A stretch of 36,206 nt of DNA from a virus, in the IMG/VR virus record IMGVR_UViG_3300031857_000625, positions 1 to 36,206 of that record; one strand, given 5' to 3'. Position 1 is the stretch's first letter, and every line of letters begins with the position of its first letter. Shown here piece by piece: positions 3,001 through 33,831 of the stretch. Made by a program: the position numbers and the translations under genes. A model generated the notes under the pieces. That model was not told where the DNA came from. It was given only the letters and a program-made list of their open reading frames with translations, and made no database searches.

Positions 3001-4552
3001 TCCATGGCTGATCTGTACTATTCCATATCTCTGGTTTTTTATCAGGATACTTTTCTGTTGATTGCCAATAACCCATATAACCAACTTGAACTAATTTACC
3101 ACCATCTGGTAATATAGTGTTTGGTGTAGATGTTTGTCCTGCAGTATTATATGTTTGATACAGTTTTATATCATCGGGAAAACTATTAACATCAGAATAG
3201 TTCTGTAATTCAGGAATAGTTAATGTACCTCCGGTAGGTGCAACAAATGTATAATCCTGTGCAGCCCTTCCTGGAATATGATATGTTGCAGACTTATCTC
3301 CAGTGTTGTAAACCCAACGGATAAAGAAAGTATATACTTCATCTCTAAGATAACTTGTATTATGACCACCTTTATAATAATAGTCTGCTGGATATTCTGT
3401 AGCTGTCCACTCAGTACCAATTAAGTTAGCAAGTGGTTGATAGTTAAAATCAAATTTAGATGTTGGACCTATTCTTAATAAATATTTATCAAGCGGAGTC
3501 ATCTGATCAGACTTTTCAAAAACTGGTGTTACTCTACCTATATCAAAGTCATCTACTACTTCTAAACTTTGTTTTAACTGATCAATAGTTATTCTATTAG
3601 TTTGTGTAGAAAATGCACCAAATCTTCTTGACTGAATACCTTCATTTACAAATGATACTATTACTAACTCAAACTCATCAAAGTTTTGTGTATCTGCTTC
3701 TACTTTTAATTCTAATGATCCCTGAGAATTATTAGGAGTATAAACTGCTTGAATATTACTTGGTGCAAAGTAGTCTGTTACTTTTACACCATTAATAAGA
3801 TATGCTATAGATGCAAAGTAAGAACCATTATCTAAAACACCAGCACCATTACCTAATTGTAATTCAAGACAAGGTGTCTGCATTAATGATGCAATTCTTA
3901 ATTTATCACAGTTTAGTGTATTAATATCATCACATGTTGTACAACCATTTACTGTTTGACAGTTTTGATTCCATGCTACACCGGGCCAAAGAATATTATT
4001 TGTACCATCAGTATAATAGTTATTACCTAACCATGTATAGTTTGTAGGTGGCCAAGTTTTAGGATCCCCAATATTAAGAAATCTATCCGGATTAAAACCA
4101 TCTGCCCAATATACTTGCCAGGTACAATCATTTATTTCTTTAGATGCTCCAGATACAAGTTTATATCTATTTAAATTTAAACATGCATCTTGAACAATAG
4201 GTCTATATCTACATGAGTCTGATTCAAATAAACCTATCTCAGAGTCAATACTATTTGAAGTAAATTCAGTAGCATGTGCTGCTGTATATATAACCCACTT
4301 GTCACTAAATAAATGTATAAGACCTACAATATACTTAAAGCCAGACATAGTTTGTCCAGCTGTAGCACACAATGCATTTGACTCTTCATTAGATAATGTA
4401 CCAAGATCACCTTCTGCAGTATTGTTTACAGCATTTCTTGCATGCGTCCACATCCCTTCTTGGATGAATGACGGATCTGAATCTTTGTTTAGTCCTTTTA
4501 CAAATGAGTTAGAACTAGTTTCAGACATTTGCTGTTTTTGATTTTTAGCCAT
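1..4552 (-). CDS. crAss-like tail muzzle/nozzle protein (partial, C-terminus off the window)
   Basis: The frame opens at the ATG at 4552, two bases after the stop of the preceding gene, and stays open for 1,517 codons to the left edge, so the C-terminus is missing. The start region (SNSFVKGLNKDSDPSF) has the pattern of the large crAss-like muzzle protein, the family that takes the place of T7 gp12/P22 gp10 at the distal end of the short tail. Later segments also fit that family: FFVESEVLIDYR, VIFQGVDTLTLDES, PYEYGSSQNRLSVISTPAG, KWWFEKFLPYKLLEAFPEYP and YDNDNSILYFSKKDYK. The size agrees with crAss muzzle proteins of roughly 1,400-1,600 residues or more. It is the last gene of the ring-protein run. 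A helical stretch near bases 2340-2400 (ALFMLLVGALAESVL) stands out as hydrophobic. Identity is well supported; exact structure is inferred from the family. Confidence 0.88.
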   Translation of the reverse strand, partial: MAKNQKQQMSETSSNSFVKGLNKDSDPSFIQEGMWTHARNAVNNTAEGDLGTLSNEESNALCATAGQTMSGFKYIVGLIHLFSDKWVIYTAAHATEFTSNSIDSEIGLFESDSCRYRPIVQDACLNLNRYKLVSGASKEINDCTWQVYWADGFNPDRFLNIGDPKTWPPTNYTWLGNNYYTDGTNNILWPGVAWNQNCQTVNGCTTCDDINTLNCDKLRIASLMQTPCLELQLGNGAGVLDNGSYFASIAYLINGVKVTDYFAPSNIQAVYTPNNSQGSLELKVEADTQNFDEFELVIVSFVNEGIQSRRFGAFSTQTNRITIDQLKQSLEVVDDFDIGRVTPVFEKSDQMTPLDKYLLRIGPTSKFDFNYQPLANLIGTEWTATEYPADYYYKGGHNTSYLRDEVYTFFIRWVYNTGDKSATYHIPGRAAQDYTFVAPTGGTLTIPELQNYSDVNSFPDDIKLYQTYNTAGQTSTPNTILPDGGKLVQVGYMGYWQSTEKYPDKKPEIWNSTDQPWTPIPHNVTNSPFDLCGKEIRHHKFPDNSVSPHFVKDPTTGKISIRVLGVQFNNIYHPVDNNGNPIPGIVGYEILRGSREGNRSVIAKGMVNNFRDFNIKGQVTDRVGLYANYPYNTIYPAGNTPNIADYNYLYNDPYIKKTQPTTDTKVNQNIPPDIISFHSPETSFRNPFLNVSELKLYGHVSGRANQQFIEPAGHPKNKLLNNKALFMLLVGALAESVLKSLGKKTFNYPQGGFTNQYGTDWLLAGPGSAGGPSTSVPPYNGINLTGGSTNFSDTAWNTATNGFSIPPFPPVFNIAFPGWLNGGQAVLNAVSGTDTLDNIYNEHNRKSVLNGGSWTPRTYTIEPTGMSLIGGPLFSAFTGAAKFAFFFSQGLQDMQRLAYAILPLRQYALQLIGHGFYDQYTKPQVNRPVRFRIEDSLYVINDTNQEIPDYITSTGSARKYTINNLYRAKFVAVRTSQANNGATVGPRFLTTGSGSNQNLINGAQDNSLVNLSITNQFFGYPNYSENDKTGTFQSNIASHYAGIKVRIENQYGQLDSVKQQIISPCEQKFDPAQLPVQIFINNGIAYPLKKLPNTINMYNGDMYICRFTEKNPMFFFYNWMYDVIDDYPFNYFVHQMLPQARFWMNSFRYDIADIEITDVGSFFNTYNGTGILPSNYYTLDNPNFDRQDDDATPYPGFLGVKESYFYTSVSGVRDFFVESEVLIDYREVGTFDFEKCYHPYRYTDLYALFKMDPIVPTRGNYYIYDQSLSASRLPQKFRSYGFLQDRYYDPQVASLCYTYLPNVITYSNYQVEGSDIDSWRIYLPLNRRDFKSQISGVKNFAKTGAFVTFKNDSPVIFQGVDTLTLDESLTKVTLGDAGLFNREPQNIVVAERPYEYGSSQNRLSVISTPAGLFYIGQEQGKIFTFNEGLVEISQAGMKWWFEKFLPYKLLEAFPEYPHTDNPVSGIGCQSIYDNDNSILYFSKKDYKLKDFDPSGNLLPGNVTYFNNGKEQYFSYNN

Positions 4553-4554
4553 AA

Positions 4555-5613
4555 CTATACAACTCTTGAATTTAGACCATAAATACCATAACGGTTATTT
4601 GGAGAGTAACTCATAAACATATAATAATACTTACCATACATGGCTTTTCTATTAGCTTGCCACATCTCTTTAAGTTCTCTAAAGTTTGGAGTATTAACTA
4701 CACTTAATGCATTATTTCTAGCAGCTTTTAATCTTTGTTCTACAAGTTGCATTCTTTGAGAAACATCTTCTCCGTTCATAAATAAGTTTTCAAGTATTCT
4801 TGACTTGAATGCATACTCATAGTATTCATTAAGAAGGTCATGATCTGGAACTAATAAGTTACCATTCTCATCTTCCATTTGACCTTGATAGTTAAGATAT
4901 ACTTTACCAGTATCAAATGTTGTAAATAAGAAACCACCTTGGATCCAACCTTCATTAGGAGTATTATAATATAAGTTTGGGCAATCACATTCTATATCTT
5001 GACTAGCCTTCATTCTTAATGGAATAAGTTGAGTATATACTCTAGTAGTTCCAGAATTATTAATTACTTGTATTAACTCATACTTATCACCTTTACAGTT
5101 CATAAAGACTCTTGGTCTTGTACAAACATCTCCATATGGAGCATTAGGATCATATTCAGTAGGAATAGGATTAGGAGCACATGTAGGAGGACATGTATTA
5201 CCTGGACATGCTGCAGTATGATTACAAGGGTTTGCATTGCATACAGAGCAGTTTACAGTAATTGGTGCACATATGTCTACAGTAGCTGGAGTTTCTACAT
5301 AAGGTACTTCTTGAATGTTTGTACCTGCAGCCCAGCCATCATAACCTAACTGCTCAGTAAATGTACCGCATATAAATGCAAAGTTGAATGTATAAAAGTC
5401 ATCAGGTAGTTTTACTTTACCGTGACATACATCAAGAATAACTTCTTTCTGTTGATTAATTCTAAGACCTAGATCATAGTTAAGTTTTTTAGCAAGTTTA
5501 ATTAACTGCTGTGGCTCAATCATATTCTCAAGAGCAAAAGTATTTAAGTCAACTGTTACATCTTCTAACAACTGATTAAATGTTCTATATCTAAGTGTAT
5601 AATTAAAGTTCAT
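4555..5613 (-). CDS. crAss-like virion ring/tail protein with a Cys-rich insert
   Basis: This 352-residue protein resembles the conserved crAss-like structural protein encoded just before the muzzle gene, one of the ring or tail-hub components of the short tail. Visible family-like segments are the N-terminal helical part (residues 1-60) and the segment KVKLPDDFYTFNFAFICG at about 66-83. Residues 115-145 carry seven cysteines (115, 122, 125, 130, 136, 141, 145) among Pro, Asn and Thr, which looks like an inserted loop or small disulfide/metal knot. The C-terminus is Tyr-rich (KYYYMFMSY). Its start shares one base with the stop of the upstream ring gene and its own stop lies two bases before the muzzle start, so the genes form one translation-coupled unit. 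Which ring it corresponds to in the crAss001 virion I cannot say. Confidence 0.78.
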   Translation of the reverse strand: MNFNYTLRYRTFNQLLEDVTVDLNTFALENMIEPQQLIKLAKKLNYDLGLRINQQKEVILDVCHGKVKLPDDFYTFNFAFICGTFTEQLGYDGWAAGTNIQEVPYVETPATVDICAPITVNCSVCNANPCNHTAACPGNTCPPTCAPNPIPTEYDPNAPYGDVCTRPRVFMNCKGDKYELIQVINNSGTTRVYTQLIPLRMKASQDIECDCPNLYYNTPNEGWIQGGFLFTTFDTGKVYLNYQGQMEDENGNLLVPDHDLLNEYYEYAFKSRILENLFMNGEDVSQRMQLVEQRLKAARNNALSVVNTPNFRELKEMWQANRKAMYGKYYYMFMSYSPNNRYGIYGLNSRVV

Positions 5614-6275
5614 TATCTAAGTATATTTTGACTATCATCTACTGAATCAGCAGGAACTTTGAGAGTCATTGTTAATTCTTGTAGTGTAAACTGTTCTACT
5701 TCTGAAAATAAATATTCAGGTAATGCAAACTGTTCTTCTTGTTTTACTTCACATGGATCAGTATCACATGTTTCAAGTTTAGCTTCAAAGATGGCTTCCA
5801 TTCTTATAGCATCCCAATCTACATTAGGAATATAAATGTAACCGTTTAGATACCAGAAATAAATGCTTCTGTTATACTTAAAGGTTGTAGTTTTAGTCAT
5901 AGAAACCCAAGTACCTGGATCAGTACGGTAAAGTTCAATAGTACCATCTATTGAAGATACTGTACGGATAATAGGACCGAACATACCATCTAAGATACTT
6001 GGTAACTTTTCTTTAGATCTTTTAAAGTAACATCCGGAGTATACACCAATACAACCAGCTTCAACTTTATCTACATCAATTAGTTCAATGTATGGAAGTA
6101 CTTTAAAGATAGAACTGATTTTCATTAGTCTAAACTGATTGTCTTCTCTTTTAATTAAAGTCTTTGCATACTTTAGAAGCAAAGAATAAATAGTTCTGTC
6201 TGTAAGGAATGCATCTTCCTTTACAGCTTTAAGAGTGTTTCTTACTCTAGATATTGCTTCTCCTACAGTGGTCAT
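5613..6275 (-). CDS. crAss-like conserved ring/adaptor structural protein
   Basis: This 220-residue protein matches the conserved crAss-like pattern beginning VGEAISRVRNTLKAVKEDAF, followed by LTDRTIYSLLLKYAKTLIKR, then VLPYIELIDVDKVEAGCIG, a Lys-rich stretch, a GPIIRTVSSIDG motif (about 100-111) and FWYLNGYIYIPNVDWDA (about 139-155). The Crassvirales family is a virion component of the head-tail connector/tail ring stack. It overlaps the upstream gene by four bases (ATGA-type) and the downstream gene by one base, so expression should be stoichiometric with both. It has no membrane segment or signal peptide. Family recognition is strong from the motifs; the exact ring number is not determinable here. 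Confidence 0.82.
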   Translation of the reverse strand: MTTVGEAISRVRNTLKAVKEDAFLTDRTIYSLLLKYAKTLIKREDNQFRLMKISSIFKVLPYIELIDVDKVEAGCIGVYSGCYFKRSKEKLPSILDGMFGPIIRTVSSIDGTIELYRTDPGTWVSMTKTTTFKYNRSIYFWYLNGYIYIPNVDWDAIRMEAIFEAKLETCDTDPCEVKQEEQFALPEYLFSEVEQFTLQELTMTLKVPADSVDDSQNILR

Positions 6276-13704: not shown

Positions 13705-14220
13705 TTATTTTAAGAAAAGTAATTTATACTTAGTTGAGTTGATTGAGTCTTTAACAAGATCCAGGTTATTTACTATCTCTGAGTAAGGCATCATACCCTG
13801 AAGCTTGTTAATTGTATTGTATAGATCTCTTAAATACCCTACGGCATCTGCAGTAGTATCAAGAGTTCTAATTGGCATGTCTGTATACTTAAGAAGCTTT
13901 TCTGCTACACCTTGATAGCCTTCTACTAAAGTATCTGCATGACCATGAAGTCCTTCATAGAATTCTCCTAATGCTTTATGTGCAGCAAATGATCCATCAC
14001 CAGTTACTTTTAGATGTAATCTATGAAAACTAATTGATGCATTCATCATTTCTGTTGCACATGCTGCTGTCATTGTATCAAGTGAGCTACCACCAACTCC
14101 TGCATCTGGTGTAGGTTGAGGTTTAGCTGGTTCACTCTTAGGTTGAGTAACAACAGGTTGTGGTCTGCTGAGTGTCTTTGCAGGTTCCGGGTTTCTTTTT
14201 AACATTCTTTTTGCTTCCAT
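13705..14220 (-). CDS. Dps/ferritin-like domain protein (DUF5856-type)
   Basis: A 171-residue protein with a Pro/Lys/Gln-rich, disordered N-terminus (about 1-48) and a helical C-terminal domain. The core SFHRLHLKVTGDGS followed by HKALGEFYEGLHGHADTLVE resembles Dps-type ferritins. H69, H81, D96 and E100 have the 12-, 15- and 19-residue spacings of E. coli Dps H51, H63, D78 and E82; the fifth ligand position (Dps D67) is G85 here, with E86 adjacent. Phage proteins of this kind are grouped, as I recall, under DUF5856. It lies directly behind the ring-protein gene (two-base gap), so it may be a virion component rather than a free ferritin. Iron oxidation or DNA protection is possible but not demonstrated; the helical part is shorter than a full Dps. 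Confidence 0.62.
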   Translation of the reverse strand: MEAKRMLKRNPEPAKTLSRPQPVVTQPKSEPAKPQPTPDAGVGGSSLDTMTAACATEMMNASISFHRLHLKVTGDGSFAAHKALGEFYEGLHGHADTLVEGYQGVAEKLLKYTDMPIRTLDTTADAVGYLRDLYNTINKLQGMMPYSEIVNNLDLVKDSINSTKYKLLFLK

Positions 14221-14222
14221 AA

Positions 14223-14921
14223 TTAGTTGTTACGTTCTGCTGTTTCTGTACCTCTAGAGAACTGATTAAATGATTCCATATCACCAGCAAGAATACTCAC
14301 AGCCTCATCAATTATTACTTCTATAATATCATCTTTAAACTCACACTCTACATTTTGTGTAGACTGTAAATTAGTATAAGGATCTACACAACCTTGTATC
14401 TGAATCTTAATTGGTTGTCTATAGTAAATCAAAGATGCTGAATCTATTTCAAAATCATTATTGGTATAGATGTTTACATTATTACCCATAAGAGTACAGA
14501 AAGTTTCTGACCATTCAAAGCTTGGTCTTTTATTAGTGTCTCTTAATAGTAAACTTACATCTGCTTCTTCTGCAAAATAAACTGTCATACGTCTTTTATT
14601 GCAGCAGTCTTTTTTAGCATATACATCTACTCTCTTCCATTGTAAGTAATCTTGTGGAAGATTATCAAAGTAATAAATCTCTTTGTTTGAAAGATTTAAA
14701 GGCTCTGTTTGAAGAAGAACTTGAAGATCATCTTTTCTTCTTGTAGAACCTTCATCACCTTCTTTATAAATATTAGTTCCGTGCAACTGTCTTCTAGTCC
14801 ACTCAACTTGTGCTTTATTAAATGCCTCAACTATTTGCCAACATTCAATGTTGTCATAGTCTTGAGAATCAAGTTTATTGACACGTTGTTTTATTTTAAT
14901 AACTATTGTAGAATTTAACAT
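14223..14921 (-). CDS. crAss-like ring/adaptor protein (5' end replaced by HNH insertion)
   Basis: A 232-residue crAss-like connector protein with NKLDSQDYDNIECWQIVEAF, NKAQVEWTRRQLHG and EGDEGSTRRKDDLQVLL in the first 75 residues, then a beta-rich centre and an acidic helical C-terminus. The family forms part of the ring stack below the portal. The start at 14921 overlaps the stop of the HNH gene (AGATGTTAA). The first 18 codons are duplicated at 15337-15390 with 16 of 18 residues identical but only about 39 of 54 bases, nearly all differences at synonymous sites. The native start is therefore probably at 15390, and this start is the copy that came with the endonuclease cassette. The protein should still be full length and functional. 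Confidence 0.8.
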   Translation of the reverse strand: MLNSTIVIKIKQRVNKLDSQDYDNIECWQIVEAFNKAQVEWTRRQLHGTNIYKEGDEGSTRRKDDLQVLLQTEPLNLSNKEIYYFDNLPQDYLQWKRVDVYAKKDCCNKRRMTVYFAEEADVSLLLRDTNKRPSFEWSETFCTLMGNNVNIYTNNDFEIDSASLIYYRQPIKIQIQGCVDPYTNLQSTQNVECEFKDDIIEVIIDEAVSILAGDMESFNQFSRGTETAERNN

Positions 14922-15328
14922 CTTTCTAAATATTTTATCATATTAGCAAGTACAGTAATATTGTCTTTTGCATAACCCAATGCTGAGTTACAACTATTAC
15001 ATAACAAACCTCTTACTTTCCCTGTAGTATGACAATGGTCAACAAACAGTCCTTTTTTTAAACTACTATGTTCAACTGAACAACAATAACATTTATAGTC
15101 TTGCTCAACTAACATTCTTTCATAATCATCAATGCTAATTTTATGAGTAGACATTAATATATTATGCTTTCTTCTTCTTTTATTATTTTCAGCCCAGGTT
15201 TTAGATCTTTGAATAGCTATCTCTTTATTTTCATTATAGAAATTTTTTCTATACTCAAGAAGTTTTTCTTTATTCTTAAGATAGTATTCTTTTTGATATT
15301 CTTTTTTATGTTCAAGATCTCTACCCAT
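14915..15328 (-). CDS. HNH endonuclease, endonuclease VII-like (homing type)
   Basis: This 137-residue protein has a Lys/Glu/Tyr-rich basic N-terminal helix (about 1-60), then an HNH/His-Me finger of the recombination endonuclease VII type: C80-x-C/C83 (KCYCC), DHCH at 97-100, TGKVRGLLCNSCN at 102-114 and a helical tail. The two Cys pairs (80/83 and 110/113) bind zinc, H98 is the likely general base and N114 the metal-binding residue. The Lys-rich N-terminus presumably binds DNA. It interrupts the run between a small basic virion gene and the ring-protein gene, and both its ends overlap: TAATG with the orphan peptide upstream and TGTTAA with the ring protein downstream. The flanking duplication argues for a freestanding homing endonuclease rather than a resolvase of the phage. 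Confidence 0.85.
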   Translation of the reverse strand: MGRDLEHKKEYQKEYYLKNKEKLLEYRKNFYNENKEIAIQRSKTWAENNKRRRKHNILMSTHKISIDDYERMLVEQDYKCYCCSVEHSSLKKGLFVDHCHTTGKVRGLLCNSCNSALGYAKDNITVLANMIKYLERC

Positions 15329-15390
15329 TATTTGACATCTAATTTATTAAGCCGTTGCTTGATCTTTATTTCAATAGTACTATTTAACAT
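15328..15390 (-). pseudogene. Orphaned native 5' end of the ring-protein gene (20-codon remnant)
   Basis: On the minus strand an ATG at 15390, three bases after the stop of the upstream gene, opens a 20-codon frame MLNSTIEIKIKQRLNKLDVK ending in TAA at 15328-15330. Its first 18 residues match the start of the ring protein at 14921 (differences only E/V and L/V). It keeps the tight spacing to the upstream gene seen throughout the window, so it is most likely the original start of that gene, cut off by insertion of the HNH cassette. It may still be translated as a short peptide and could couple translation into the HNH gene through the TAATG overlap. Confidence 0.85.
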
Positions 15391-15393
15391 TTG

Positions 15394-15831
15394 TTATTTC
15401 TTTTTTCTTTTTATAGATCCACCTTTTTTTCTAACAACAGATTCCATAGATTCTCTTGTATTAAATCCAGAATTACCACGCATTTCTTTTTCAGCCCAAT
15501 TTCTTAATGCCATTTCTTTTTGAGGTGTTCTTGTATTATTTTGATTACTTCCAAAATAGGTTCTATTTTTTCTTGTATCATAACCTTCAGGAGATGGGTA
15601 AAAAGGAACTTTAGGATTTGTAGAAGGATATTGATAATCTAAAAATGCAGCATCACTTTTTGATAATGGACCTGCTTTAATAGGATCTCCCTGTGAATTA
15701 ACTTGAATACCATCTTGAGCTTTTTTTAAAGACTTTTTAAATGCCTTCATTTGACCACCGGCTTTTTTATAAGCCATAGCTTTATTATCATTAAAGGTTT
15801 TAAGTGGATTAGGTTTAGTTGTCTTTTTCAT
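15394..15831 (-). CDS. Small basic protein with C-terminal KKGG motif
   Basis: A 145-residue Lys-, Asn- and Pro-rich protein without membrane segments. It has a helical basic N-terminus (KKTTKPNPLKTFNDNKAMAY), a low-complexity middle with YPSTNPKVPFYPSPEGY, and a C-terminus RKKGGSIKRKKK. The last motif is shared with four other proteins nearby. It is the last of six consecutive small basic genes between the capsid and ring genes. The position and charge suggest a DNA-binding protein carried inside the virion. I recognise no catalytic domain and give no specific function. Confidence 0.55.
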   Translation of the reverse strand: MKKTTKPNPLKTFNDNKAMAYKKAGGQMKAFKKSLKKAQDGIQVNSQGDPIKAGPLSKSDAAFLDYQYPSTNPKVPFYPSPEGYDTRKNRTYFGSNQNNTRTPQKEMALRNWAEKEMRGNSGFNTRESMESVVRKKGGSIKRKKK

Positions 15832-15832
15832 T

Positions 15833-16300
15833 TTATTTCTTTTTAGCCATTTTTTTCAAAGTAACAGCAAGAGCTTTTCTTTTTGGTGTACAAGTTGGTT
15901 TTGACATTGGAGTGCAGTAACCTTTGTGTGCAGGATTGATAGCTTTTTGAATCCACTTCTTATCAGTAGATCCACCCTTTTTCATCATGATAACTGGTGA
16001 AGAAACTAATTTTGCTTTTTTCTCACCACCTTTTTTTGCAATAAGATCAGAATTTTTCTTAGCTGCTCTTTTTGCTTGTCTAACAGGTTTGTTCTCCTTT
16101 ATGTTCTTTGCAATTCTAGTACCAATTGCAGCTGCACCAGCACCAAGTATTGTTGCAGCAACTTTAGCACTTGGTGTACTAAATGCTCCTGGTTTTTTAG
16201 CCCATGGAACACATTTACCATCTACACAACCATGTTCTGGAGGACACTCTGAACCATAATTACAGTTTTGACTTGAGCGTGTAGTTTTCTTTACAGCCAT
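15833..16300 (-). CDS. Small basic Cys-containing protein with KWIQKAINPAHKGYC motif
   Basis: This 155-residue protein has an N-terminal Cys-rich segment (CNYGSECPPEHGCVDGKCVP, about 14-33) similar to a short disulfide or metal knot, a small Ala/Gly hydrophobic stretch (VAATILGAGAAAIGT, about 48-62) that might touch a membrane, and a very basic remainder. The end contains DKKWIQKAINPAHKGYC, then two Cys and KRKALAVTLKKMAKKK, a motif I recognise from small proteins of unknown function in many marine and Bacteroidota phages. Two GG motifs (AKKGGEKK and KKGGSTDKK) are shared with neighbours. The gene abuts both neighbours. A virion-internal, DNA-associated role is inferred from charge and position. 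Confidence 0.55.
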   Translation of the reverse strand: MAVKKTTRSSQNCNYGSECPPEHGCVDGKCVPWAKKPGAFSTPSAKVAATILGAGAAAIGTRIAKNIKENKPVRQAKRAAKKNSDLIAKKGGEKKAKLVSSPVIMMKKGGSTDKKWIQKAINPAHKGYCTPMSKPTCTPKRKALAVTLKKMAKKK

Positions 16301-16841: not shown

Positions 16842-17123
16842 TTAACAGTTCCACTTTCTCAAAGACTTATTAATCCTTGAGTTAGGATCATTAGCTGTCT
16901 TAGAGCTTGTTAGTTTCTTCTTCATACCAGACATTCTAGCACAAAAAGATTTTCTTCTTTTAGCATCTTTACTATCTGGAGCAAGTTTTGATGGTTTAGT
17001 AGTCACAGCAGTTTTAAGTTTACTTCCTGGATTAGCTTTTCTATATGATGCTACTCCTTTTGCATTAAGACCTCCTGATAGATTCTTACCTTCTTTTCTT
17101 TGCCATGCTGGAGACTTTGCCAT
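16842..17123 (-). CDS. DUF6321-like small basic protein
   Basis: A 93-residue protein recognisable by PAWQRKEGKNLSGGLNAKG, ASYRKANPGSKLK, then RRKSFCARMSGMKKKLTSSK and ANDPNSRINKSLRKWNC. This sequence pattern is widespread in marine and Bacteroidota phages and in some bacteria and is, as I recall, the family DUF6321; its function is unknown. It is extremely basic, with cysteines only in FCARM and at the C-terminus. It lies between two other basic genes with two- and eleven-base gaps. Conservation across unrelated phages and high charge suggest nucleic-acid binding, possibly packaged with the genome. Family recognition is good; function is inference. Confidence 0.72.
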   Translation of the reverse strand: MAKSPAWQRKEGKNLSGGLNAKGVASYRKANPGSKLKTAVTTKPSKLAPDSKDAKRRKSFCARMSGMKKKLTSSKTANDPNSRINKSLRKWNC

Positions 17124-32435: not shown

Positions 32436-33316
32436 TTTATTTTAATTTTTATTTGTGTACCCTGAGCTATTTTTTCAGAAGTAACCTCAAAATTATGTTC
32501 TTTTATTATGGCTACACAAATGCCAAGACCAAGACCACTACCTGATTCTTTTTGGTTTTCTCTTCTTTTGTTTTGCCTTGAGTATTCTATTAATTCTTCA
32601 TTAGATAAACCTCTACCATTATCTTGCACAATCAAAGTATGATTATCCAACATATATACAATTACTAGTTTATTTTCAGAGTCATTATATCTAAGCCCAT
32701 TTCTGATCAAATTATCTACAGCTGTACAAAATAAAGATTCATTGATCTTTGCACTTGGTAAAACATCAATGATAACTTGGTCTTTATATGAAGTAGTCTC
32801 TAAATATTTTTTTAAGCAATCATCTAACTTAACCTCTTTAAACTCTAATGAACTACCCTGCTTTACTAAGTTTGTAAATTCATAAACTCCTTTATATACT
32901 TTTTGAGTATGTAAAAGACCATCTTTAAGCAACTTTAAAGGTGATGCTAAATTATACTGCTCTATAATTTCTAGTGGTAATCTTCTTTCTAATGAACTAA
33001 TTCCTCTAGGTATGTATACATTGATTCCAGAATGCATATCATGTCTAAGAATCTTAGCAGCATGTTCAAGATATGTATTTTTATATTGTAGCTGATCTAC
33101 TGTTAACTGGTGCAATTGTTCTTTTTCTTTTAAGAAGTCTTTAACAAACCAGAAAGCAGGAGGACAAAATACAATAAAACAAAAATACTCAATTAGGTTA
33201 GTATACTTACACTGAAGAAATATACCAAATAATGTAAAAGTTTTAACAACAAAAAATACTAGCATGCAAATACCAGCAATTATTAATGCTGCTTTACTTT
33301 TAAAAGATAGGGTCAT
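32432..33316 (-). CDS. Membrane histidine kinase
   Basis: A 294-residue sensor kinase. Two N-terminal TM segments (about 8-30 and 41-58) are linked by a loop of only about ten residues (LQCKYTN), so there is no periplasmic sensor domain. A short coiled coil (about 60-85) leads to the DHp domain with phosphoacceptor H92 in LRHDMHSG. The HATPase_c domain has an N box (AVDNLIRNGLRYND; N202 and N206), G1 (QDNGRGLS; D232) and G2 (SGSGLGLGI; 258-266). All catalytic motifs appear intact. It overlaps the YceI-family gene and the response regulator gene by four bases each. It therefore forms an active-looking two-component pair inside the phage lysis operon. Confidence 0.9.
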   Translation of the reverse strand: MTLSFKSKAALIIAGICMLVFFVVKTFTLFGIFLQCKYTNLIEYFCFIVFCPPAFWFVKDFLKEKEQLHQLTVDQLQYKNTYLEHAAKILRHDMHSGINVYIPRGISSLERRLPLEIIEQYNLASPLKLLKDGLLHTQKVYKGVYEFTNLVKQGSSLEFKEVKLDDCLKKYLETTSYKDQVIIDVLPSAKINESLFCTAVDNLIRNGLRYNDSENKLVIVYMLDNHTLIVQDNGRGLSNEELIEYSRQNKRRENQKESGSGLGLGICVAIIKEHNFEVTSEKIAQGTQIKIKIK

Positions 33317-33831
33317 GCCTTCATCATTTGAATATTGATCATAAGTTTTACTTCATCACCAATCAACAAAGATCCTTTACCACCTTCTAAGTTAAATGTT
33401 AAACCCCAGTCTTTTCTGTTTATAGATCCATCAAGTTCAAATCCATACTTAGTTTGACCATAAGCATCAACATCATTACCATTGTAGTTACCTTTTAGAG
33501 TTACTTCTCTTGACACACCTTTAATTGTTAACTCTCCAATAACTGTATACTCATCATTTATCTTTTCTACCTTAGAAGACTCAAAAGTTATATAAGGAAA
33601 GTTATCAGCATCAAAAAAGTCTTCTCCTTTTAAATGATTATCTCTATCTGTAATGTTTGTTGAAATGGTATTTACTTCTGCTTGAAACCATATCTTAGCA
33701 CCTTCAAAGTCTTCAGACTCAGATTCCATAGTAGCATCAAACTTACCAAATATTCCATTAACATTTGAGATCATCAAATGCTTAATTCTAAATGCTACAT
33801 CTGAGTGAAGCGGATCAATAATATATCTCAT
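33313..33831 (-). CDS. YceI-family lipocalin-like protein, no signal peptide
   Basis: A 172-residue protein with the typical YceI pattern: YIIDPLHSDVAFRIKHLMIS, NGIFGKFDATM, NTISTNITDRDNHLKGEDFF, FPYITFESSKVE, GELTIKGVSREVTL, and KTKYGFELDGSIN-like end with RKDWGLTFN. The fold is a lipid- or isoprenoid-binding beta-barrel resembling lipocalins. Cellular YceI proteins often carry a signal peptide, but this one starts with the domain itself, so it should be cytosolic unless released by lysis. It overlaps both the histidine kinase gene and the small membrane protein gene by four bases, so it is part of the operon. A role in binding isoprenoid quinones or lipids as a ligand for the kinase or holin is speculation. 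Confidence 0.88.
   Translation of the reverse strand: MRYIIDPLHSDVAFRIKHLMISNVNGIFGKFDATMESESEDFEGAKIWFQAEVNTISTNITDRDNHLKGEDFFDADNFPYITFESSKVEKINDEYTVIGELTIKGVSREVTLKGNYNGNDVDAYGQTKYGFELDGSINRKDWGLTFNLEGGKGSLLIGDEVKLMINIQMMKA

Follow-up and report, generated by a model that had tools for sequence, protein, structure and literature searches.

Background

Homing endonucleases are thought to enter essential coding sequence mainly via introns or inteins, or to sit beside genes. The locus described here raises the question of how a small nuclease gene can occupy the start of another gene without either device while that gene remains whole. It lies on the minus strand of IMG/VR virus record IMGVR_UViG_3300031857_000625, the whole stretch of which (36,206 nt, hereafter the window) was analysed, and consists of an HNH nuclease gene placed between two versions of the start of the same gene. 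An initial annotation, made from the sequence alone, had read this arrangement as a start-replacing, self-immune homing cassette that brings along a recoded start for the gene it interrupts. Having compared the locus with its relatives, we consider it likely that it is an intron-less, gene-start-replacing homing cassette, free-standing and consisting of an HNH gene together with a version of the invaded gene's first ~18-20 codons that has diverged mostly by synonymous changes, with cleavage, homing and immunity being inferred.

Results and discussion

Architecture of the locus

All features of the locus are on the minus strand. The upstream gene (15394..15831; 145 aa) has its stop at 15394 and is followed by CAA and then by an ATG at 15390, from which 18 codons of the native ring-gene start (15337..15390) are stranded as an upstream remnant. 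These 18 codons (15390-15337) run on into GTC AAA TAA, forming a mini-ORF of 20 codons made of remnant and cassette bases (15328..15390; MLNSTIEIKIKQRLNKLDVK and stop), whose translation is inferred and whose TAA overlaps the ATG of the HNH gene. The latter (14915..15328) encodes a 137 aa nuclease of the endonuclease VII type, and its stop is overlapped by 7 bases by the ATG of the target, the intact ring gene (14223..14921), which starts at 14921 with MLNSTIVIKIKQRVNKLDSQ. The first 18 codons of this gene (14868..14921) constitute the replacement start, and together with the remnant they form direct repeats ~470 nt apart, which agree in 39/54 bases and 16/18 residues. Every coordinate and count in the initial annotation was confirmed, as was its placement of the native start 3 bases after the previous gene. 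Its statement that nearly all changes are synonymous is slightly overstated: synonymous codons account for 11 of the 15 base differences, and the substituted codons E7V and L14V for the other 4. The two starts use a different codon at 9/15 shared degenerate residues. The contrast that it drew between AGT and TCT for Ser did hold, with Ser4 being AGT in the remnant and TCT in the replacement start. The TCT of Ser19, just past the 18 codons, could conceivably be part of the replacement tract as well.

Chance similarity of the two starts was ruled out by a duplication score of 77 at this locus, when none of 59 control ORFs exceeded 33, and by recurrence, the start duplication being found again at every related HNH locus of the ring gene. 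A split gene or translational bypass, as in mobA/mobE, was likewise ruled out, because the ring gene is intact and equal in length to that in empty relatives. The absence of an intron, also claimed at the outset, was upheld: no Rfam intron family was detected at 14200-16000, and the HNH gene forms an ORF of its own, complete with stop and start. The same Rfam search gave a histone stem-loop match on the opposite strand that stayed below threshold and was taken as chance.

Identity of the nuclease and of its target

The HNH protein is a member of the Endonuclease_7 family (Pfam PF02945, 8e-23; PHROG, 8e-30) with intact Cys4 and DH...N residues; its nearest sequences in the PDB are Hpy99I and T4 endonuclease VII, and it shares 39% identity with F-CphI, a phage protein annotated as a homing endonuclease. 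Purifying selection acts on the nuclease genes, with pN/pS values of 0.15-0.31 among the copies of cassette family A (see below) and of 0.15-0.37 overall.

The target is less securely identified. The label "ring protein", taken over from the initial annotation, is only weakly backed by a match to CrAss_Ring_3_4 (PF25710) that lies below the cutoff (E 0.05-0.1) and by 29% identity to the "ring protein" of phage csAssE-Sib. The PHROG match is to a virion structural protein (29507, E 2e-15), a PDB profile search with the ring protein gave no match, and its AlphaFold2 model (mean pLDDT 42) is too poor to use. The gene may hence be regarded as one for a virion structural protein, its assignment as crAss ring protein 3/4 remaining tentative, and we retain the name for convenience. 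The phage itself is crAss-like: its terminase matches Crassvirales genomes, though distantly, and CrAss_Ring_1 and CrAss_Ring_2 proteins are encoded at 4555-6275. The window further encodes a full YceI-like domain protein (33313-33831; Pfam E 7e-44).

Empty and occupied versions of the ring locus

A protein search of IMG/VR recovered 80 loci with ring proteins 73-83% identical to that of the window. In most of these there is no HNH gene, and the remnant-type version of the start stands immediately behind the preceding gene; in particular, L001-L013 encode MLNSTIEIKIKQRLNKLDSQ, the same as the window remnant, which at the DNA level is 96% identical to the start of the HNH-free L012. Across 94 distinct loci, Ser4 is spelled AGY in 86/87 HNH-free ones and TCN in 7/7 carriers (Fisher p 8e-10), and all 7 distinct carriers tabulated also possess the upstream native remnant. 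A pattern scan of the whole of IMG/VR for TCN-type starts returned 9 contigs, 6 already in the ring set and 3 new, and every one of them has an HNH gene directly upstream and the native remnant beyond it. A further carrier, L082, whose contig extends only 60 bases into the ring gene, was found via its HNH protein. Comparison with relatives shows the structure, its recurrence and the native identity of the remnant. The initial annotation had proposed to check whether uninterrupted relatives have the upstream codon version and no HNH gene, and this was borne out; carriers combine the native remnant, the HNH gene and the alternative start. The reading would have been refuted by HNH-free relatives with the downstream codon version at the native start, or by the two copies occurring without an HNH gene, and neither was seen at the ring gene. 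The sole HNH-free TCN start, that of L338 (Ser4 = TCA), is divergent and is not matched by the cassette-type pattern. As a separate matter, one ring locus (L044:1301-1927) has a different HNH-like gene, with an ESHHMKHR motif, just after a small MATKKKSDKNW-type gene and ~300 bases upstream of the ring gene.

As every carrier sequence is a metagenome contig, the arrangement could in principle be an assembly chimera of two co-occurring phage strains. The same structure, junctions and intact frames are, however, present in many contigs from different samples, which leaves this possibility with next to no support.

Two cassette families and the unit of exchange

The carriers fall into two families. 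In family A (the window, L027, L046/L048, L061/L062 and L082) 18 native codons and a stop are followed by an HNH gene with its own start, and in family B (L074, L133/L134 and L137) the first 9-12 native codons continue in frame into the HNH gene. The HNH proteins of the two families are 34-39% identical; they sit at different points of the ring gene, each with its own replacement start, and the HNH end overlaps the new ring start by 7 nt in A and by 8 nt in B. When compared with L046, the HNH copy of L048 shows an in-frame TGA and a missing base, with the ring start still being the replacement version; this might reflect either decay of the nuclease or a sequencing error.

The unit of exchange is shown by a comparison between the families. 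L061 (A) and L074 (B) share 99.0% identity across 900 bases of upstream sequence, there is no difference between their remnants, and identity is 99.3% over the ring gene from nt 91 and 99.0% beyond it, so that the two phages differ only in the HNH gene carried and in nt 1-90 of the ring gene. The empty locus L049 shows 97.6% identity to L061 in the upstream region, 96-97% along the remnant and only 70% to the replacement start of L061; its ring body is 86% identical to that of L061, and hence the two are not isogenic downstream.

A passive tandem duplication of the gene start, combined with a chance HNH insertion and spread by ordinary recombination without homing, might also be envisaged. In its favour, a nuclease gene can hitchhike, and data on mobility of the cassette are lacking. 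On the other hand, duplicated copies would begin identical and both would match the local lineage, whereas only the upstream copy does; moreover, the arrangement is found repeatedly, in combination with different HNH families, at different insertion points and in different target genes, the HNH gene always lying between the copies. We hold this explanation to be very improbable.

An independent replicate at a tail gene

The duplication test was run on 52 distinct HNH ORFs. About 40 of these 52 endonuclease VII genes showed no start duplication, which counts against the cassette reading. The test also pointed to another target besides the ring gene, a tail or virion gene (M..LQT.SISAPGF.GLNTQDS...) on contigs resembling unrelated short-tailed phages by their PHROG matches. 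From 80 fetched relatives of this gene we obtained 51 distinct empty and 11 HNH-bearing loci, the remnant being kept in some but not all of the latter. The carrier L263 and the empty L380 are 100% identical over the upstream 400 nt, agree at 38/39 bases of the remnant and are 97% identical in the gene body, whereas their agreement over the replacement start is 27/39; the mismatches are dense from nt 10 to 52 and absent from 53 to 111 (p 1e-9). The pairs L271/L374, L111/L400 and L288/L302 concur, with right boundaries at nt 48-53. Thus, carriers and empty relatives at the tail gene have flanks up to 97-100% identical and first ~50 bases that are ~30% different, mostly synonymously, and the sharpness of the boundaries is shown by these comparisons. 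In L288 the two starts are identical at 16/16 residues with 13 codons changed.

Taken over both targets, empty and occupied alleles occur at the same site in close relatives (L061/L074/L049, L263/L380, L271/L374 and L288/L302). The presence of a diverged copy of the target-gene end together with the displaced native end is confirmed by the identity of the remnant to the native start (96%, versus <=81% for the new start) and by five close-pair comparisons. The start-replacing part of the initial reading is hence well supported, including by near-isogenic pairs.

Mirror-image forms at gene 3' ends and cultured phages

Similar structures were observed at the other end of genes. In crAss-like loci L011, L023, L047, L073, L237, L337 and L338 an HNH gene follows a DUF6321 gene (e.g. 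L011:2857-3276, L023:2231-2803 and L047:1925-2344) with duplicated, respelled gene 3' ends; the window homologue of DUF6321 (16842-17123) has no HNH gene there. These HNH ORFs end in ...KWNC and a stop, like the native DUF6321 gene, and the DUF6321 gene accompanied by an HNH gene ends in other codons, with Ser as AGT versus TCN in empty loci and, in L011 and L047, CGT AAA in place of AGA AAG. The replacement-type 3' end also exists without an HNH gene (L013:3212-3250, L045:1092-1130 and L053:2681-2719), which speaks against the cassette reading. Replacement ends without a nuclease are expected after its loss, and these three are possibly resistant alleles of that kind, or might represent the donor lineage. 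Six-codon 3' duplications were found at the tail gene in L288, L293, L300 and L301; a candidate in L228 was rejected, as it dropped to background once C-termini were aligned at the stop codon. Each 3'-end duplication is short and is weaker evidence taken alone. The tail gene of L288 (2017-3555) has HNH genes on both sides (1551-2024 and 3555-3992), of which the 5' one shares the tail-gene start (MAEQLVGSSIAAPGF) and the 3' one repeats its end (KMGRTI / KLGRTI); both ends of this gene may have been replaced.

Among cultured phages with endonuclease VII genes (12 regions fetched, 10 compared), none combined a remnant with a duplicated start, a result that likewise counts against the cassette reading. 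In Klebsiella phage Kp_Pokalde_002 (L360, 1465-1866) and Erwinia phage L1 (L364, 1471-1806) gp11 and gp12 flank an HNH gene, whose overlap with the start of gp12 is 35 nt and 26 nt, respectively. Both HNH genes stand directly after a ribosome-binding site without a remnant, and could perhaps be a version with a zero-length remnant in cultured T7-like phages.

Origin and spelling of the replacement start

The replacement starts are alike within each family (mean identity 0.84 in A and 0.83 in B), with one of 0.87 between that of the window and that of another carrier. Against 71 distinct native starts their means are about 0.69, with a maximum of 0.815; a native start and its nearest native neighbour have an identity of 0.925 on average. 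Among five cassette-A carriers the HNH and new-start distances show no correlation (r = -0.11; 10 pairs, 54 nt), and hence co-inheritance is not shown by distance, albeit in a small sample. Over the length of the remnant, new and native ring starts have identities of 0.61-0.78, values also found between the starts of empty relatives whose gene bodies are 70-80% identical, and therefore selection for recoding is not demonstrated at the ring gene.

This leaves room for a captured foreign allele, i.e. the ring start of a distant phage carried along as the right recombination point lies inside the gene, with resistance a by-product and no recoding under selection. The description "recoded" in the initial annotation might accordingly stand for a long-diverged, cassette-linked allele. 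Such an origin is compatible with our main explanation, from which it differs only in the source of the second start. It is favoured by the range of divergence just mentioned, by the HNH-free divergent relative L338 with its TCA codon, and by the interpretation of yeast WHO elements and Glomus mobile ORFs as carriers of diverged alleles. Against it, the replacement starts resemble other members of their family and none of the 71 native starts, L288 keeps all its residues across 13 changed codons, and no donor was found. On balance we lean slightly away from it.

Alternatively, the spelling differences might serve only to prevent repeat recombination that deletes the HNH gene, immunity having no role. 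The copies are direct repeats in close proximity, and phages recombine efficiently. However, the divergent tract also covers unrepeated DNA: it outruns the duplicated stretch in L074 (remnant 33 nt, tract to nt 90) and in L263 (remnant 39 nt, tract to nt 52). This fits protection of a cut site rather than repeat avoidance alone, and we regard the purely anti-deletion explanation as unlikely.

A proposed mechanism

Under the homing-cassette reading, which we prefer, the cycle would begin in a co-infected cell, with the HNH enzyme cutting an empty ring gene near the codons where the cassette inserts. Repair would then proceed from the cassette-bearing genome, with homology provided on the left by the shared upstream region and on the right by the ring gene past the replacement tract. 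The recipient would be left with its former start stranded upstream, followed by the HNH gene and by a full-length ring gene with cassette-derived first codons and a nearly unchanged protein product. With the old start joined to the cassette and the new one spelled differently, no intact recognition site would remain and the phage would be immune; an identical start would recreate the cut site when the full gene is rebuilt beside its right half, which a respelled one would not. The different spelling would also block recombination between the copies that deletes the cassette. The HNH gene would take over the native ring start, through the mini-ORF with its overlapping stop and start in the window and through in-frame fusion in family B, and translation would be handed back to the ring gene through the 7-8 base stop/start overlap. 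Cleavage, repair, homing, immunity and translational coupling are all inferences, no cleavage, homing or resistance data being available; the resistance of the carried allele to its own nuclease, in particular, is inferred from sequence differences at the insertion point. The terms "self-immune" and "homing" of the initial annotation likewise remain inferences without a cleavage or mobility assay.

A bolder reading would see here a general phage class of self-immune, gene-end-replacing homing cassettes, whose replacement end evolved as a cut-resistant, function-preserving recoding, and which would be natural home-and-rescue drives invading essential virion coding sequence without introns or inteins. 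Its scope would take in 5' and 3' versions, several nuclease subfamilies, at least 3 target genes and at least 2 unrelated phage groups. The arguments for and against this generalization appear to us evenly matched. Cassettes of this kind enter coding sequence and repair the damage by carrying the gene end along. If true, this would account for the spread of small HNH genes to the ends of virion genes, for the mosaic character that phage gene starts and ends can have, and for immunity of an element that has no separate resistance gene. The cassette would also be a naturally occurring analogue of recoded-rescue gene drives and lend itself to the study of resistance and decay. Phages would offer a fast and tractable system for asking whether a nuclease element selects for synonymous rewriting of its own target, so far a question for yeast.

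Comparison with known systems

Among phage elements, the free-standing homing endonucleases (T4 seg/mob; F-CphI of S-PM2) are similar in being promoter-less HNH/endonuclease VII family genes in phage operons, which adjoin an important gene and entail co-conversion of flanks. The T4 free-standing enzymes, however, cut hundreds to thousands of bases from their own gene, and in the literature searched we found no duplicated, respelled target-gene end for enzymes of this kind. Reviewed T4 HNH insertions adjoin genes or split them. T4 mobA in gene 60 and Aeh1 mobE in nrdA resemble the cassette in being HNH genes inside a phage gene, but they split it into two polypeptides, whereas the target of the cassette stays whole with its start supplied again. 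One study on phage nuclease genes located at exchange boundaries contained neither "synonymous" nor "recognition site", and nothing on duplicated gene ends in the relevant passages. With incomplete coverage, the literature searched yielded no phage precedent, only mitochondrial and yeast ones.

Engineered home-and-rescue (HomeR) drives (PMC7968924) place a nuclease and a recoded, cut-resistant copy of an essential gene at the target. These are synthetic, Cas9-based and used in insects, whereas the phage cassette is natural and looks to be built on the same plan.

The WHO elements of Torulaspora and Lachancea yeasts pair an endonuclease gene with one end of an essential gene in the form of a diverged allele; their insertion replaces the gene end and leaves the old end as a fragment, and the allele is cleavage-resistant, by experiment for WHO6 (Coughlan et al. 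2020, PMC7282813). The phage cassette shares with them the gene-end replacement, the old end left as a fragment, and the absence of an intron or protein splicing. WHO elements, however, have an HO/intein-type enzyme and target the 3' end of yeast nuclear FBA1, with fragments of ~400 bp, while the phage cassette has an HNH enzyme at virion genes, acts at the 5' end in the ring and tail genes with tracts of ~50-90 nt, and its nuclease uses the native start of the target. It hence does not meet the criteria for a WHO element proper, namely an HO/WHO-type intein-derived zinc-finger endonuclease at the FBA1 3' end. Fungal mitochondrial mobile ORFs similarly replace C-termini, in Allomyces atp6 and in Glomus atp6, atp9, cox2 and nad3, with gene ends that are 64-81% identical in DNA and near-identical in protein (Beaudet et al. 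2013, PMC3630166). Here too an endonuclease ORF has the incoming, diverged gene end on one side and the native end, now displaced, on the other. These are mitochondrial elements with LAGLIDADG or GIY-YIG enzymes, confined to 3' ends, whereas the ring cassette has an HNH enzyme at the 5' end, and it does not meet their defining criteria (LAGLIDADG/GIY-YIG enzyme, C-terminus) either. The mechanism inferred here, cleavage and homing included, is like that of WHO elements and mitochondrial mobile ORFs, whose nucleases are unrelated and which work at gene 3' ends, and it differs in the 5' end of the target gene, the HNH enzyme and the phage setting.
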